The notes under the pieces were generated by a model, which saw nothing but the letters and a program-made list of their open reading frames with translations, ran no database searches and had not been told where the DNA came from. The position numbers and the translations under genes are program-made. A stretch of 64,000 nt of DNA from Capitulum mitella (lineage: Eukaryota; Arthropoda; Thecostraca; Pollicipedomorpha; Pollicipedidae), in contig CP099840.1 of NCBI GenBank assembly GCA_030062745.1, positions 9,677,533 to 9,741,532 on the forward strand. The letters run 5' to 3'. Positions within the stretch are counted from its first letter, which is position 1; the number at the start of each line of letters is the position of its first letter. Below, piece by piece: positions 40,162-62,450 of the stretch.

Positions 40162-43100
40162 AACCCCGGCCGGGTTTCGCTCGTCCCGTCAGTACTCGAC
40201 ATGGAGTCGGGCATCGCTGAACTGCTCTCAATTGGCGCTTGTCTCCGCCCGGCTCACAGCTGCCATCTGTTGGCCTGTGCATGTGCTCGCTCTCTTGCAG
40301 CCCGTTCAAAGTTGGCCTGATTTCGACTGAACGTATGGGCCCCTTTCGTCGGCAGGCAGTCACGGACGGGGTCGGACGGGGTCGGTCTCTCGCCGCCCGG
40401 GTCTCTTAGATCGGCTCCGTGTAAGGACCCGTCGCGCACTGGCATTTATCAGTTAAATAACACAGAGAGATTGATCGTGAGTTGAATGAGGAGAATAGAC
40501 CGTCCTTTATTTCTCGTTTCATTTTTTTCGTGGTAAGGTAGGACTGCCTGCGGTCTGCAGCTATTCTCATCCGCCCTCGAAAACGTCCAGAAAAACGACC
40601 ATGACGTTGCCAGGGTGTATAAGACCATGGGCTTAGTAGGACTGCTGCCCTACCAGCTTTGAGAAAAAAATGCATTGTTCCAATGAGAAGAAATAATCTG
40701 AGAATGGCTCTTGCCCTACCAACTTGAGAAATGCTCCTACGCATACGGCCGTCACTCAGGACAATGGTTGTCCTCACGGGCTTGCTTCATGTGAATGCTG
40801 TTTCGGTAGTGATACATCCATGAGCTTAGCTGCCGGATAGGACACCACCGCGTCAAAAATAACAAGAAAGTCCCTGTTGACTCCTGCTCCTCTGATGGCG
40901 AAATGACCTTGACCTGTTCGGGACCGGGCGGGCCACGCGGTCCGCCAAAGTCGGCCGGCCGGGAGAGATCACGTGACCTGCACCGGCGGCTGAGGCCAGT
41001 AAGAGGCGAGATCTGCCGAGACTGGATACGGCCGGGGTGACTCCGAACAGTCGCACTCGCCGTCGCTCCCCCCTCCAGAGCCCTACGTCGCTCCACTGGG
41101 ATCATGCGCTGTCAAAGCGACGGATAAAGACGCTAGCTGTGGAAGAGATGACGCTTAATGTCTAAAGCGAAGATCCTGGATGAACTCCGAGGAGAAGTTT
41201 AGCTATATCTGGCGTCTGTCCGACCAAAATGGTCAGCGTCGCGATATCAGCCATGAGTTTTGTTTATCGTGACTTTTGACACGTCTCGCCTCCCCTCGAA
41301 GCTTCTCGCGGTGTGCCTCTGCCTCGCCGTGAGACATTTCACTCGCAGCCCGCTGCGGTGTTTGAATTGTCAGCAGTGCGGCCACGTGTTCCGGATCTCT
41401 CGCTGTTATCAACGGGGAGAGCGTTCACACGAGGACTGTCCATGTCCAAAACTGCGCTGTCTGGCTGAAAGAGAGAGAAAAACATATCGATCTCTGGCTA
41501 CAGATTGTACTTGATGGCAGGGGCGCAGCCAGGGTTTTCCCAAGAGGGAGTCCGGAGCTCAGTGTGCACTGAAATCATATGAAAACCGCCTGCTGGGAAG
41601 ACCAAGTGCAATGGTTTTCGCAAAAATAAGGACCTAAAGGGAGGGACCGGGCCCCCCTGGGCCCCATTTGGCTGTACCGGTGCTTGATGGTGATCATTGG
41701 GAGGTTTGTAACCATGTGTTTACATGTGAGGAGCATGTAAATTGACTAGAAAAGCTGCAAAGACGTACGCATGAATAACATACGATTAACTGAGCAGTAG
41801 TTACGTACATGACATGGAGAAACTGCATGGGATGAAATGCCCTGACAACCAACAAACAAGACTATTCCAAGGGAGCTCGGCGCGATTCAGTCTTCATACG
41901 CTTGGCTAACAGGGACAGCGTGCGTGTCAGTTCACCGCGATGGACATACGGTGGCCCATGCACCGTAATTATTGGACCTGGCCAGAGAGCAATCCGGCCT
42001 TCCTGCGTCACTCCGTGATGAAGTTAGCGGCAGACCGGTGAGCACAGCGGCCGTCTCCGGGAACATAGTCCGGCCGCGCTGACCTGGGCCGTCTCCGGGG
42101 ACATAGTCCGGCCGCTCTGAACCGGTCCGTCTCCGGGGTCCTGGTCGGGCCGCGCTGACCTGGACCTTCTCCGGGGTCCCGGTCGGACTCCGCTGACCTG
42201 GGCCGTCTCCGGGGTCCTGGTCGGACTCCGCTGACCTGGGCCGTCTCCGGGGTCCTGGTCGGGCCGCGCTGACCTGGGCAGTCTCCGGGTTCCTGGTTGG
42301 GTCGCGCTGACCTGGGCCGTCTCCGGGGTCCTGGTCTGGTCGCGCTGACCTAGGCCGTCTCCGGGGTCCTGGGCCGACCGCGCTGACTTGGACCGTCTCC
42401 GGGGTTCTGGTCTGGCCGCGCTGACCTGAGCCGTCTCCGGGGTTCTGGTCGGACCGCGCTGACTTGGAACGTCTCCGGGGTCCTGGTCGGACTCCGCTGA
42501 CCTGGGCCGTCTCCGGGGTCCTGGTCGGACTCCGCTGACCTGGGCCGTCTCCGGGGTCCTGGTCGGGCCGCGCTGACCTGGGCAGTCTCCGGGTTCCTGG
42601 TCGGGTCGCGCTGACCTGGGCCGTCTCCGGGGTCCTGGTCTGGTCGCGCTGACCTAGGCCGTCTCCGGGGTCCTGGGCCGACCGCGCTGACTTGGACCGT
42701 CTCCGGGGTTCTGGTCTGGCGGCGCTGACCTGAGCCGTCTCCGGGGTTCTGGTCGGACCGCGCTGACTTGGAACGTCTCCGGGGTCCTGGTCGGACTCCG
42801 CTGACCTGGTCCGTCTCCGGGGTCCTGGTCGGACTCCGCTGACCTGGGCCGTTTCCGGGGTCCTGGTCGGACCGCGCTGACCTGGTTTGTCTTCGGCGGG
42901 GCCACGGTTGCCGACTCGGCGCCCAGGCCACACCCTGTACCGAGGCGGCCGGCCAGGGGACGACCGGCTAGAGCGCCGCCCGCCGCCGCGAACGGGGCAG
43001 CCCCACGGCAACGATGCCGAGATGGGGCTGACCTGCAAGGGCGGCAGCCACGTGCATGCCGCTACATACCGCTGCAAGTGGCGACATTGTCAACGGGCCG

Positions 43101-56104: not shown

Positions 56105-56371
56105 TCACGTGCTGGCCGGTACCGGCTGACCTGAGCGCAGAGTCATCCGCCGCCGACTCTGCACCATGCCGTAGACCACCGAGGCCAGGTTCCGACGCGT
56201 GCTGCCCTGGCGCGACACCACCGCCGGATCTTCGGCGTCCACAGGCGGGCACAGCCGCCTCAGGCTGCACGTGCCCGTGTAGCCGTTGACGAAGTACGTC
56301 TCCATTTCGCCCTTGCCTTTCACCTGGATCGTACCGCGAGACTCGATGGCGAAGCCCTGGCACTCGAGGAT
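56105..56371 (-). CDS. Adenylyl cyclase, terminal coding exon
   Basis: 88 codons and a stop, read right to left. It is preceded on the - strand by TTCGCCAG, starts in phase 0 and ends GCACGTGA. It encodes ILECQGFAIESRGTIQVKGK then GEMETYFVNG, the last strands of the C2 catalytic domain; the Lys of VKGKG is the ATP-phosphate-binding residue. Joined to the 61826-61971 exon it restores exactly the usual 16 residues between IQVT and RG. A 58-residue tail follows, with NLASVVYGMVQSRRRM, which resembles the C2b segment of vertebrate ADCY8 (AAVVLGLVQS in my memory) where calmodulin binds an IQ-like motif. The subtype is not settled. Confidence 0.92.
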   Translation of the reverse strand: MLECQGFAIESRGTIQVKGKGEMETYFVNGYTGTCSLRRLCPPVDAEDPAVVSRQGSTRRNLASVVYGMVQSRRRMTLRSGQPVPAST

Positions 56372-56697
56372 CTGGCGAAAGCGTTAGCAGTGTCGATTTG
56401 CATGTCACTCTGGGACTCCCTGCGACTATGGAAACAGCAGGCGTGGGTCAGGTAAACGTGCTGCAGGAACACAGATGCGGGTTCGGGGACAAGGTTTTGC
56501 TCACAGCAAGCCTTAGAACAGCACAATCGGACATTTCCTACAGTTCTATCCCGCGAGGAAGTCTTAGATTTTTACCCAGGGACAAACCCATTACAACAAT
56601 GTGCGATCCACGTATACGCGCGTTTAAAATGCGCGTTTAACCCGGCACCGTCTGGGGAGTGTCAAAAAGGGCACCCCTCGGTTTTTCGTCAATAATT

Positions 56698-56746
56698 TCT
56701 GAACCACAAGAGACCAACCAACCAACCAACCACCAGCCCAACCAAC
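56698..56746. repeat. CCAA tetranucleotide repeat
   Basis: An ACCAACCAACCAACCAACCA run with a degenerate tail, in the cyclase intron. Confidence 0.85.
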
Positions 56747-57475
56747 CTTTCAGTACTTGTTGATCAATCAGTTCTGCATATTTTGACATCAAAACCATTT
56801 CCGCGTTAGGTCAGGTCATGGAGATATGACGTCATACGTGAACTTTTGCATGGATGCTTTCGCCTCTTAAGGCAGTGGCGCGAACATGCTTCGTTTCTTT
56901 TTTTTATAATACTCACGAATATAATTCATGGATTATTTGGACTTACATATGACATGGTCTCCAAAAAGACACAAAGCCATGGCACATCAACATTAGATGC
57001 CATGCTAGTTCACACAGATGAAGACAACTGAACTGATTTGTATTGCGGGTGCTAGAAGTGGTTGCCGTTGACCTTCCCCATCGCTAAAGCCAGACAAGCA
57101 AATCTATATGCGCCTCTTAGCAAGGACCACCAAATGCAAGGTGAGATCGTGTCAGGTCACGTCATAGGTTGATGCCAAAACGAAATAAAATACAACACTG
57201 TCTGTGGAAGGTCGTTCAGTAGCATCAGAGAGCAGTTATTGTTCCTAATCAGAAAATGAAAAATGACAATCTGTTTTGACCTAGCTTTACCTTAACCCGA
57301 TAAAGAGCCGACAGAGCGGATTTCATTATCACGAGACGTCATTTCAGTTCTGTACTGGATGCAGTGAAGAATCCCAGCGAGTTATTATTGCTCTTTGTCA
57401 GGAACAGTAATAAAATCTTATCTGACCTGACCTAGAATGATCTTGACTGGATGGAAAGCAGGTAATGCGTAACTC

Positions 57476-57492
57476 ATCATCAGATGAGTACA

Positions 57493-57547
<55 letters not shown>

Positions 57548-57650
57548 CTAACTTACCATCAGATGAGTAAATCTATACATGATATATATATATATATATA
57601 TATAACTAACTCATCATGAGATGAGTATATATATATATATATATATATTT
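57476..57650. repeat. Compound AT microsatellite with an ATCAGATGAGTA spacer
   Basis: Three AT runs are separated by near-identical spacers, TAACTAACTTACCATCAGAT/GAGTA and TAACTAACTCATCATGAGAT/GAGTA. The larger unit is duplicated, so it is a minisatellite built from a microsatellite. TCATCAGATGAGT-type segments are themselves near-palindromes. Confidence 0.85.
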
Positions 57651-60329
57651 GAGTGGCCCATATAATCTCATACATGTGTCAACGGCTCTCACAAGAATAA
57701 CAAAAGGGATGAAAAACTAAAAGTTATGTTTTAGCATTTTTCAAATAGTTATCCTATAAAGAACCTTAGAAAGAGTTATTAGAGTCAAATCTGTGTTTTG
57801 GGAACACGGGATGAAAGCGCCCACTAATAGCGATGCTACGAAGGAAAAATGACAGGGCTGCAACTCTCGTTAATTTATACCGTAAGCAGAAGCGTCTAAG
57901 CTGGTGCTCACGACGACATTGTATACGCTTGGGACCCAAGAGTCTGACATCATGCTGACAAAGTGGTAACACATTGTCACACACATCACATACATAGCTT
58001 GGAGCACCACACTGGAAGCTACCCCGTACATTTGTTGTCTTTCTACATTTGTTCTTTTACGTACCTCTAGGATCTAACACGAACCACAGATAGTTATTGT
58101 GATCCAATATGTTTTTCTTCAACATGGCGATTACCAATGGCGGTGCCACGGGCCGAAAAAGATAAAATGTTGAAATAGAAATAATAAAATATAGAAATGA
58201 ATAAATAAATAGGTAAATAACGAAAAGAAAATTAAAAAATACGAAAAAGAGTAAAACATTTTTGTCTTAAGATGTTTACCATGTTCCTTGTTTATACTAT
58301 GAACAGTACCGTGGTATTAAGTGGAATATCGTAATATTATGGGCGCAAGCGAAGGCTCCCCTGTGTCCGCCCATAGCAATATCCTCCTTAGTGTGGGCAT
58401 GTGTAAAAAACATACGCTGTACGGACACAACATACAACGCTGCAAAGTCGTACTCGTCATCGCGTTATATGTAAATTATGTAGTTTCGTAACACGGTCTA
58501 CCAATGCTAAATTCTGGTCTACCGGATCCGCCGCCGCCGCCGTCATGCTTCCTGTGCGTGGCCTAACATATGTCGTGGAGACCCAGTGAGGACATAATAC
58601 ACAAAAGTTGCGATTATATCAGTTCGCGATGTGACAAGATGTTGCAGTTGATTCTCTATATACAATGTCATAAGCACTCCTTTCCGCTTCCATTGATCTG
58701 TCACTGCCGCCATCTTATGTTACAAATATGCAGCAAGGTATAAAATAAACAGGTACATCGCGCAATGGTTATATGGTTCTCAAGAACTTCCGCAGAATTC
58801 ACAGAGTGCTGCCTCCAAGGTTACGAACAACAGCCAACCTTGCGGAAAAAAGTCCTGAACTCGCATCTAATAAGACTAACAAAGCTACCTTTTACAGAAT
58901 AAACGTTGGGAATGCTTACACAGAAAATTAGGGAACGGTACCATGTTCTTTGGTCTTTATCTTAGACCTGTCGTCAGAAACGGCACACGAAAAACCCCAG
59001 AAAGGGCCAATGAGCCCCCCACCTCTCCACCCGGCCGAGAAGAAGATTTATGAATCCTACATGACAGCTTTATGAGATAAAACGCCTCATAATGCGTATG
59101 GACCGACCAGAATGCTGCAGCAGCACCTAGCAGTAGCATGACAAATACTTAGTATGAGTTTTCATACTTGGGACCTGAAAGAATAAGCATGATTCGGAAC
59201 CCTCAAGATAATGAAAGTCTGGGTGATTTCAGTTCATTGGAAAATACAGCATGCCTATTGCATGCAACGACTATTTTCCTGAAATATTGGCGAGGTTTAT
59301 GATCAAATCACGCACAAAGGCCAAAGCGGATTTCGTCGGCAGCTAAAAAAGAACATGTGCTGGCCACCGCGCCACGTTTGGGATTTAAACAAGGAAGCGG
59401 TCGAGTGAGCACGCAAGCATTCCTCGTCGGCTCACCGTCCTAGAAAGGGTGCGTCCAGACATATGCCGACGCTGTGCTATCGAGAACGGGAGCGGCGGGC
59501 CGCGAGGGTGAATCAGCCAGCCAAAGGCTAGCTGAGTCCTACACGCCGAGTGCTCCCAGCACTCGGCAAATGCGCTGTCGGAAAACCGCCACCTGGTATT
59601 TCCGCTCAGAACGCTTCATGTACGGGAACAGGGCTACCATTCGCCACGCCAGCCACGCGCTGCAAACTGGAAACAAAGGGCCACGGTTTGGCATCAGACC
59701 TGTAATCCGCTGCCTGCTACTGCGTTGCAAACCAGAACGAGTAACGTAGGGGTCAGAGGGGTCAGCGGATCCCTTCCCTTCATGGTCATAGGTTTCCAAA
59801 AATTGCATTTTATCAGAAATAATTCGTTTAAAGACAAACATATTTAATCCGCGCACGACTGGCGGTCGGCGCCATGCACGCTGCACTGGGGGCTGTTGAT
59901 ACCCCTCTGACTCGCGAACGGTTGGTCGCACAATAAAAAAGCATACCGTTGTTAAGCTCGTCACAAGCAGAGTTCGAAACTGGCCTCATTTTTGCCTTTG
60001 AGTGATACGTAAGACATTTGCGCCCTATACATGCTTTCTTAAAGCCGAATTAGCCCTCTGAAGGCCGACTCTCAAAGCCCGAGACATGGTCTGGATCTCA
60101 ATGGCTGTGATTTATCAAGGTTCGACGGACAGGCGCCAACGAAAGGGTAAAAGTCCGCATATGCCGATGTCCGCCTTATTTCTCTGATTTGTTTACTATT
60201 TACGCCGAAACGTTGAGCTAGACACAGCGATTTTCGTGCCAGTGTACCGCGGACGCCAGTGCACGCGGGGTGGAATTAACGGGCATAAATTTTAGCGTTT
60301 TATTACTTTGGCAAAATAAACCTCCCGAA
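57651..60329. other. AT-rich intronic stretch, no gene seen
   Basis: A small minus-strand frame (57766-57984) has a retroelement-like feel (Cys/Arg-rich LRRFCLRYKLTR) but too little to call. The rest, including 58.2-59.2 kb, shows nothing recognisable. Confidence 0.4.
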
Positions 60330-61100
60330 ACGGTGTTTTTTTTTGACGTTAGGGATTCGTGCTTTGGTTTTCCACGTTCAAGTGTTAAAACAATTCAGCA
60401 AGTCTTAATATACGCCATTTGCGAACTTTGTTCGCGAAAGCCTGTTCGTTTTCAAAACACGCATTCCTTTACCTTTTGAACTTCTTGGTATCATTGCAAC
60501 TGTGAAAGCCAGTTCTGCTTTTTTCTATCCGTTCTCAGTCACTTGTCGCCGACTTTGACGGTGGTGCATTTTGGCTCACAACAGTTATTGGTGGCCTGAC
60601 CTCAGGTCAATGGTTGGAGGTCATTGACCCTTTGCCCAGTGACAACAGTTGGATGTCCGCATCACCTCATACTCAATGCTTTTTAAAAATAACCCTCAAT
60701 TTCCGAAAAACGACAACATGTAACTGGCTTGACATTAGGTCAATAGCCAAGAAGCTTCTAAAAAAACCTGAGCTTTCAGATTTGTTGCACTTATCCAGAT
60801 CTCTAATCCCTGGGTGCTTTATTCCGATATCTTGTTTTCGTAAAAAAATGCGAGAAGCTTAATCTTTTTGCACATAGGCTCACTTGAACTGGTCTTGGGC
60901 AGAGACGTGACTCGACCTGAGGCCAAAACGTTGACACAAGACGTGAATCGTGGCACTGTGTTTGTTAATTCTCATGCAATCTTTCGAATACCTCGGTGAG
61001 GGAGGCTGTCAACTGGCCCTACCCCAGTCGAGGTCAGGGGTATGAATTAAAAAGCAATGTCCTTTTTCAAAACCTACAGGTGTGGTATTTTGATACGAGC
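60330..61100 (-). repeat. Interspersed repeat, family A, copy 2 (inverted)
   Basis: Read on the - strand it follows 1955-2760 landmark by landmark: ACCCCAGTCG-like left part, TTGTGTCAACGTTTTGGCCT, AAAACAAGATATC, ATTGACCTAATGTCAAGCC, GTCGTTTTTCGGAAATTGA, AATAACTGTT and AGAACTGGCTT. No coding sequence or clean ends are visible. Confidence 0.7.
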
Positions 61101-61528
61101 AGTCTCCCAATGCTGCAATAAAATGGTAAGAGTACTATCAAACATTTCCATATAAGGCTTGACTCTCGTGACAAAAATCCTGGCCACGTTACTGACCAGA
61201 ATAATTCTATATCAATACCAAACGGAGTTAATGTGTTCATCAAAGGCATTCCTCAGTCCACTCGCATGAAGTGGACAGACGATCCACAGTTTGAACGTTG
61301 ACAAAACAACCGTTGAAAACCAACGATAGGCTAGTATTTTCCAAAATATTTGCCCAGCAACCTAAACGAGGCATGTCTGACTCCAGTAAATCCGCCACAA
61401 CAGCAACGAAAGATCACGTCGCATCGTCGCAAAGGCAAATGACCTCCGCAAGATTACCGCAGCAAACGTTTGTAAGCTGGCGTCAGAATGGCAGGTGATC
61501 ATCTACATGAAAGTTGCCCATTCCCTAT

Positions 61529-61856
61529 AATGATCTGACCCGGCACCTGCGTGAAGTTCCACTAAACTGAACTGACTCAGCACCTACGTGACCTGTCACC
61601 ACACTGATCTGAGTCACGATCTGCGTGACCTGTCACTATACTGACCTGAGCCAGCATCTGAGTGACCTGTTGCCATACTGGCTTGAGCCAGCAACTGAGT
61701 GACCTGTCACCATACTGACCTGAGCCATCATCTGAGTGACCTGTCACCATACTGACCCGAGCCAGCATCTGAGTGGCCTGTCACCATACTGAGCCATCAT
61801 CTGAGTGACCTGTCACTATACTGACCTGAGCCAGCACCTGCGTGACCTGTATCCTG
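61529..61856. repeat. 37-bp tandem array overlapping an exon end and splice donor
   Basis: Nine units on the + strand, for example ACTGACCTGAGCCAGCATCT followed by GAGTGACCTGTCACCAT, start near 61529, 61566, 61603, 61640, 61677, 61714, 61751, 61788 (5 bases shorter) and 61820. The last unit contains the real exon end. On the gene's strand each unit reads CAGGTCACTCAGATGCTGGC TCAG|GTCAGT..., that is, the last 24 exon bases plus 13 intron bases. Confidence 0.9.
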
Positions 61857-61971
61857 TCCGCCACGCCCGTCGTGTCCATGCGGCTCGCCTGGTTGACAGT
61901 GTCCGACCAGATGTCGAATACGGGCTTCTTGGCTCCGATCACGCCGCCCACAAGAGGACCGCAGCTGGCAC
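61826..61971 (-). CDS. Adenylyl cyclase, penultimate coding exon (C2 domain)
   Basis: 146 bases read right to left, entered from TTGCCACCAG in phase 1 and left at GCTCAG|GTCAGT in phase 0. It encodes (G)[20 protein letters not shown], then [20 protein letters not shown] and QVTQVLAQ. The Asp of FDIW and the Asn and Arg of TVNQASRM are the known purine- and phosphate-contacting residues of the mammalian C2 domain, and all are kept. WSDTVNQ differs from the usual WGNTVNV. The last eight residues are encoded by sequence that also forms the repeat unit of the adjoining array. Confidence 0.92.
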
Positions 61972-62149
61972 CTGGTGGCAAACGATTCAGCCCTGTCTTT
62001 CAATAGCTCCGCTAGATGTAGCAGACAACGGCGACAGGTGATGCTGGAAGAGGCAGGTCTGGCGATCACCAACGTCCTCCGCGCGAGAAAATTTACAGGG
62101 ACATGTCGCATGTCACTGTCAACAGTCCCATCACAGTTCTAGTTCACTG

Positions 62150-62450
62150 GACATTTTTTCAGCCGGAGCATCACTTTAATATGCAGTTAATAAATATATA
62201 AATAATCTGTTGATAATTTCCTCCTAATTATGACATCCAAAAATGGAAGCTTTCCGTCTTTTTCTCTCTCTCTGCCATGAACTAGATCGATTGCTCAACG
62301 CTATTTATCTTCTTAAGTATTCTATCCAAGTCGGTAAAACAGTGTCATCAACATACCTTAGCCATATCGAGTCCTCGCCCAAAATTTGCTTGAAGAAACC
62401 TCCCTCTAAGGTCTCCATATACAGAGTAGCCAAGACTGCGCTTCACCGTA
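62150..62450 (-). mobile_element. Fossil reverse-transcriptase fragment, Penelope-like
   Basis: On the - strand a short stretch carries AVLATLYMETLEGG and the polymerase catalytic signature YVDD, with a downstream KLPFLDVIIRRK motif. This order is typical of Penelope-like elements and related retroelements. Only a piece of the polymerase is present; it is broken by at least two interruptions and looks old. No ends or repeats belonging to the element are visible. Confidence 0.7.

Follow-up and report, generated by a model that had tools for sequence, protein, structure and literature searches.

The window analysed here, a stretch of 64,000 nucleotides of the Capitulum mitella genome (contig C2:9677533-9741532; the analysed genome comprises 477 Mb in 16 contigs), contains a 37-bp tandem array whose unit carries the 5' splice site of an adenylyl cyclase exon. 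The array is a junction-spanning minisatellite of the type found in the human CBS and F7 genes, an architecture that was already known, and it is probably a tolerated one, grown from the junction into the intron while the exon-proximal donor is the one used. Arrays of the same kind at other exons of this genome support this reading, so that the window array looks like one member of a large set of repeats that copy junctions and not like a dedicated switch.

On the minus strand the exon ends in ...CAGGTCACGCAGGTGCTGGCTCAG|GTCAGT, and the repeat unit consists of 24 exon bases, CAGGTCACGCAGGTGCTGGCTCAG (61849-61826), followed by 13 intron bases, GTCAGTATAGTGA. TRF detects the array at 61531-61850 with period 37, 8.8 copies and a score of 234, as well as at multiples of this period, namely 74 (61560-61850, score 358) and 111 (61588-61850, score 369). 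As described in the initial annotation, the array starts inside the coding end of the exon, whose last base is 61826, and runs into the intron, and the composition of the unit as the last 24 exon bases plus 13 intron bases can be seen both in the sequence and in the alignment of the copies (Table 1). A dispersed repeat was also considered and found no support, as the array, when searched against the genome at the DNA level by a method that skips very common words, matched only itself and its own exon neighbour.

Table 1. Features of the cyclase exon, its array and the following intron and exon (positions in the window)
Feature	Positions	Strand	Basis
Adenylyl cyclase C2 domain coding exon, 3' part	61826..61972	-	PF00211 match at contig C2:9739361-9739504; 55 bits for window 61826-61999; aligns to AC5/AC9 chains
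Last 24 exon bases, exon part of the first repeat unit	61826..61849	-	Sequence; copy alignment
GT of the inferred true 5' splice site, CAG|GTCAGT (donor 61826|61825)	61824..61825	-	Gapless protein join; best U1 pairing at 61500-61875, equalled by two copies
37-bp minisatellite, ~9 copies, mostly intronic	61531..61850	-	TRF; alignment of 9 copies
Intact GT of copy 3 (exon side ends at 61757), CGG|GTCAGT	61755..61756	-	Donor-site scan
Intact GT of copy 4 (exon side ends at 61720), CAG|GTCAGT	61718..61719	-	Donor-site scan
Intact GT of copy 6 (exon side ends at 61646), CAG|GTCAGT	61644..61645	-	Donor-site scan
First in-frame TGA on read-through of the true donor	61781..61783	-	Sequence; ORF 61781-61999 ends there
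Intron, 5454 bp, phase 0, GT-AG, acceptor ...CGCCAG|ATCCTC	56372..61825	-	Sequence
Next coding exon (ILECQGFAIESRGTIQVKGKG...), last one by its in-frame TGA	56105..56371	-	ORF 56105-56383; PF00211 profile 154-183

The position of the true donor, which the initial annotation had placed at 61826|61825, is supported by two protein comparisons. The 58-aa piece encoded by the exon matches the PF00211 profile with 55 bits, its residues 10-54 falling on positions 105-149. The piece encoded by the next exon, which starts at 56371, enters the profile at position 154 with its residue 1, in a match of 20.8 bits that falls just below the cut-off of 21.9. Since position 149 plus the four remaining residues meets position 154, the predicted join at 61826/56371 is gapless. 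In the same line, the joined peptide runs without gaps through the five alignments shown, with one AC5 and four AC9 chain sequences (E 3.6e-32 for AC5 and 4e-28 for AC9), and the resulting protein length fits the upstream-most donor. Pairing with the 5' end of U1 was estimated for GT and GC sites over 61500-61875 and gave -7.5 kcal/mol for the true donor, the same value for each of two intronic copies and a slightly weaker one (-6.8 kcal/mol) for a third. The exon itself carries CAG|GTCACG (61847|61846, -5.6 kcal/mol) and CAG|GTGCTG (61838|61837, -6.8 kcal/mol), and six of the eight intronic units begin with a weaker CAG|GTCAC site.

Two human genes offer precedents for such an arrangement. 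In CBS, a 31-bp VNTR, c.1444_1467+7(16_21), has a unit that combines the 24 bases at the coding end with 7 intron bases, so that, as far as the consulted part of the report goes (PMC2630376), it resembles the window array in joining 24 terminal coding bases to the beginning of the intron and in having a 5' splice site within each copy. The CBS array, with 31 bp, 7 intron bases and 16-21 copies, varies among people, whereas the window array has 37 bp, 13 intron bases and ~9 degenerate copies in one assembly. In intron 7 of F7 (IVS7) the repeats are also of 37 bp, and the consulted part of the source (PMC6627357) indicates that splicing normally takes place at the most upstream donor alone, cryptic downstream donors being activated when it is mutated. 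The likeness to F7 noted here is one of layout: in both cases the first of the 37-bp repeats holds the true 5' splice site and further donors follow downstream, with the difference that use of the upstream-most donor was shown by test in F7, whereas it is predicted for the window. Three features that characterize junction-spanning VNTRs of the CBS and F7 type are present in the window array, as its unit holds the last coding and the first intron bases (24 + 13), the array enters the intron with its first unit fused to the exon (61531-61850, exon end 61826), and donors occur in downstream units (GT in 3/8 intronic copies). Taken singly, a minisatellite across a splice junction is a curiosity for which human genes already provide precedents.

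The relations among the copies were examined in an alignment of nine of them, the exon-fused copy and eight intronic ones. At column 6, a G is common to the exon copy and to the far-edge copies c7-c9, with a T in c2-c6, whereas at column 10 a G is common to the exon copy, c8 and c9. This pattern, as expected of an array that grew out of an exon-like unit and whose middle was homogenised afterwards, suggests that the exon-like sequence is the ancestral unit. Regarding the donors, the intact GT copies ending at 61757, 61720 and 61646 were found where the initial annotation had located them, and the GT is gone from the other five intronic copies, in one through a deletion of 5 nt and in the others through the substitutions T>C, G>A, G>T and G>A. 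Together with the overlapping GG, this dinucleotide is tied lowest among 36 (mean intact 74%), a low retention for which a binomial test gave P=0.03, with the caveat that it concerns one array and was chosen after seeing the initial annotation. An array of selected decoy donors would keep its donors better than the rest of the unit, and here the GT stands at 3/8 against that mean of 74%.

The initial annotation had offered two possibilities, a tolerated accident or a set of decoys competing with the true donor. Working decoys would turn a share of the transcripts into stop-containing, degraded forms, and the length of the array would then tune cyclase output. As U1 pairing is equally strong for the true donor and for two intronic copies (and slightly weaker for one more), such a competition is possible in principle; moreover, the in-frame TGA at 61783-61781, also pointed out initially, lies before all three intact downstream donors and would be included by the use of any downstream copy. 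The F7 gene can be read either way, since mutation of its first donor activates the cryptic ones downstream but the first donor alone is used normally, at least in the consulted part of the source (PMC6627357). The poor GT retention in the window weighs against decoys, whereas the array of the paralogue on contig C8 has kept the GT in 10/12 junction copies within its first 360 intron bases, in a comparison confined to the GT of its unit, and the decay of donors is consequently not general. Altogether, tolerance is favoured as the simplest reading and working decoys, weakened by the GT retention and by the F7 analogy, are quite unlikely despite the C8 array.

For the tolerated minisatellite, we infer a history that would start with the tandem duplication of a segment straddling the 5' splice site, followed by growth of the array downstream into the intron, where it would be free of constraint, while the exon-fused copy would be held by coding selection. 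The exon-proximal donor would most likely be the one spliced; with this first donor in use the protein would remain unchanged, and the array would therefore be close to neutral. Occasional splicing at a downstream copy would include the TGA at 61783-61781 and produce a dead or degraded transcript.

Each unit could also be regarded as a potential symmetric micro-exon of 21 nt (ACAG|GTCACTCAGATGCTGGCTCAG|GTCAGT), which would turn the array into a bank of optional 7-residue inserts for the C2 domain. Copies 4 and 6 do have phase 0 on both sides, 21 nt and CAG|...|GT boundaries, but the would-be acceptors are not preceded by a pyrimidine tract (GTATGGTGACAG) and the GT is absent from 5/8 intronic copies, which makes optional inserts of this kind very improbable.

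In the AGGT model of intron gain, the duplication supplies both ends of the new intron. The acceptor of the window intron, by contrast, lies 5.4 kb off and bears no likeness to the exon end: the last 21 intron bases, considered as a possible copy of the donor sequence, match the exon end at 6/21 positions (P=0.52). What the window shares with this model, intron gain through tandem duplication of an AGGT segment as presented in the consulted part of the source (PMC4974935), is the tandem duplication of a segment with AG|GT at a coding boundary.

Comparison with other cyclase genes of the same genome revealed that the intron is displaced. The paralogues on contigs C6, C8, C11 and C13 have IQ as the last residues of the exon, with GT donors in three of them and CAG|GC in C11, and seven codons open the next exon before I-L: VTERTAQ (C8), VTEELYH (C6), VTEEVYH (C11) and CIGETKD (C13). 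In the window gene, seven codons (VTQVLAQ) end the upstream exon and the next exon opens at I-L. Because VTQVLAQ sits on the upstream exon, the intron of the window gene is shifted by 21 nt in the downstream direction relative to the four paralogues examined that have the intron, while the protein retains its length. Two further paralogues, on contigs C4 and C5, lack an intron at that place, a single open frame containing the entire domain; in these two genes each catalytic domain lies in one long open frame, unlike the many-exon cyclases.

Since the same 21 nt form the exon part of the repeat unit, the array and the shift of the intron may be connected. The array might even have come first, standing at an ancestral donor after ...RIQ; the exon would then have acquired the 21 nt (VTQVLAQ) from it as the donor shifted downstream by one step, and the next exon would have lost seven codons in return. 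This order of events is unlikely, although several observations point to it: the seven codons begin the next exon in the four intron-bearing paralogues but end the upstream exon in the window gene, the C8 paralogue carries a junction array at the donor after IQ, and the beginning of the C8 intron is similar to the 21 nt (P=0.03 in a comparison with shuffled cores). Their similarity to the start of the next exon of C6 is closer, however (14/21, P=0.0035), the corresponding values being 13/21 (P=0.10) for C8 and 11/21 (P=0.17) for C11. Both the C6 and the C8 intron likenesses are weak, and the better one, to the C6 exon, favours a slide of the intron with the codons kept. The similarity between the window and C8 arrays (local score 42-45) is likewise hard to judge. 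Their shared ancestry is not claimed: the local alignment gave z=17.5, but the score is indecisive as an unrelated myosin array reached 37 against C8. Seven other pairs of arrays gave z values from -0.3 to 2.0 in six cases and 3.7 in one (C9/C13, where the exon ends do not match). If the window and C8 arrays do share an origin, an old and persisting array would fit pure neutrality less well.

The initial annotation had held that relatives with the array but without this exon end in its unit would speak against its description. The C8 paralogue complicates this criterion with a junction-copying array of its own, at a donor seven codons further upstream in protein terms, which is why the exon end within the unit differs between the paralogues. 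In detail, at C8:19110499-19110654 (minus strand) successive copies of the exon end GGACGGATACAG|GTCAGT continue into the intron.

The minisatellite of the window is accompanied by others, and this wider pattern of junction copying in the genome is more interesting than the window array alone. Other cyclase exons have an array that begins within the exon end and repeats the donor (C8:19110499, C13:5488933, C13:18768497, C9:26023302 and C14:14226207), a decayed one is found at C14:2755891, and two myosin exons carry junction-copying arrays as well (C2:10684129, and C10:6465350, a short one of 2.1 copies). Like the window array, those of the C8, C9, C13 and C14 cyclases and of the C2 and C10 myosins repeat exon end and donor into the intron; unlike it, they have TRF periods that, multiples aside, range over 18-45 bp, each has a distinct sequence, and several are strongly decayed. 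On contig C12, a 30-bp array of ~45 copies (C12:15921590-15923192) starts 15 bases past a cyclase donor, and its unit resembles by eye the exon end CGGCTGCAGATCAG. The paired paralogue exons C4:20080440 and C5:8642715 have unlike introns, and downstream of each lie decayed copies of its exon end, which suggests that such copies arose more than once, or were renewed, at one and the same donor. Four cyclase exon pairs on C13/C14 and C4/C5 have 49/60 exon bases alike and introns unlike. Such paired exons, together with the 16 contigs and 477 Mb, fit the pattern of thoracican barnacles, which are reported in the consulted part of the source (PMC11331182) to have 16 chromosomes and to have undergone an ancient whole-genome duplication.

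The frequency of junction copies was surveyed in 193 exons with PF00211 (78, from 88/94 listed rows), PF00063 (67, from 84/86) or PF00520 (48 chosen by hand out of 126), with donors and acceptors called by hand-written weight matrices; 190 were scored, three being dropped for a short exon or flank. TRF arrays span 8/193 donors, that of the window included, vs 2/193 acceptors. Array coverage downstream of donors reaches 17/193 at +80 and +100 and lies at 5-8 of 176-192 from +240 to +400, with 4-9 of 181-193 throughout upstream of acceptors. Copies of the junction sequence nearby (score >=12, that is, at least 12) occur at 17/190 donors vs 7/190 acceptors (P=0.056). By segment, this threshold was reached by the exon end against the downstream intron in 13/190 exons, by the donor junction in 14/190, by the acceptor junction in 6/190 and by the exon start against the upstream intron in 3/190, in comparison with 1 to 2 of 190 for each of four crossed or mid-exon control segments and 0 or 1 of 570 shuffles per segment (1/570 for the exon end against the downstream intron, 0/570 for the donor junction).

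A donor-specific origin as a rule was nevertheless discarded. The first cyclase loci gave 10/50 donors vs 1/50 acceptors, and the loci elsewhere 7 vs 6 of 140, distributed at threshold 12 as 2 vs 0 of 25 for later cyclase exons, 5 vs 6 of 67 for myosin and 0 vs 0 of 48 for ion channel exons. Over all 190 exons, P for the donor excess ranges from 0.023 to 0.22 across thresholds 11, 12, 13, 14 and 16. No donor bias is claimed from this survey because the excess came from the loci where it was first noticed; the junction-copying repeats are real and fairly common at donors and acceptors alike, and a preference for donors is not shown by the survey. A C at position +3 (GTCAGT) is not claimed as a mark of array-bearing donors either, with 7/31 donors with C vs 11/125 without it (Fisher P=0.054), in a test with another donor matrix that found junction copies at 18/156 donors (12 cyclase, 5 myosin and 1 ion channel). 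Similarly, a general excess of sense-strand AGGTNAG downstream of donors was unsupported, with 24 sense vs 23 antisense matches (cyclase 16 vs 5, myosin 4 vs 11, ion channel 4 vs 7).

At the genome scale, three CAGGTNAGT motifs spaced 12-42 bases apart gave 388 + 432 = 820 matches vs 61 + 30 = 91 for the backwards pattern, in overlapping counts made irrespective of the position of exons and with this backwards pattern, which differs in dinucleotide make-up, as the sole control. Among the matches listed, 31 separate places were distinguished by eye after merging rows within ~1.5 kb, and the units differ between places where their letters were printed. When motifs were ranked in 330 kb, CAGGTNAGT stood for one locus only, a number too small for a judgement. 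The sequence AGGTCA is also a nuclear-receptor half-site. This 9-fold excess of donor-consensus arrays over the backwards control is not obviously predicted by a plain random placement of minisatellites. It is conceivable, but we regard it as doubtful, that the genome holds hundreds of minisatellites with a 5' splice site in the unit, born repeatedly at donors, including the same donor in paralogues, and acting as a lasting force that multiplies donors and is able to move the ends of exons, for which the 7-codon displacement would be an example. In the literature searched, which leaves most subscription journals outside, no paper was found on junction-spanning arrays as a genome-wide class. 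If these arrays were truly common at donors, they would provide many natural tests of how the spliceosome chooses among near-identical neighbouring donors and of whether repeat expansion moves exon boundaries. Moreover, gene annotation may misplace exon ends in such genomes, where several good donors stand 30-40 bases apart.

Two further observations concern the window itself. A 38-bp array of 22 copies (TRF) at 42049-42886 contains 15 matches to (C/A)AGGT(A/C/G)AG on the minus strand and 0 on the plus strand. Upstream of the cyclase exon, at 62305-62442 on the minus strand, a frame with RYVDD is perhaps a retroelement remnant, its weak match to the reverse-transcriptase family PF00078 (E 0.13) being under the cut-off.
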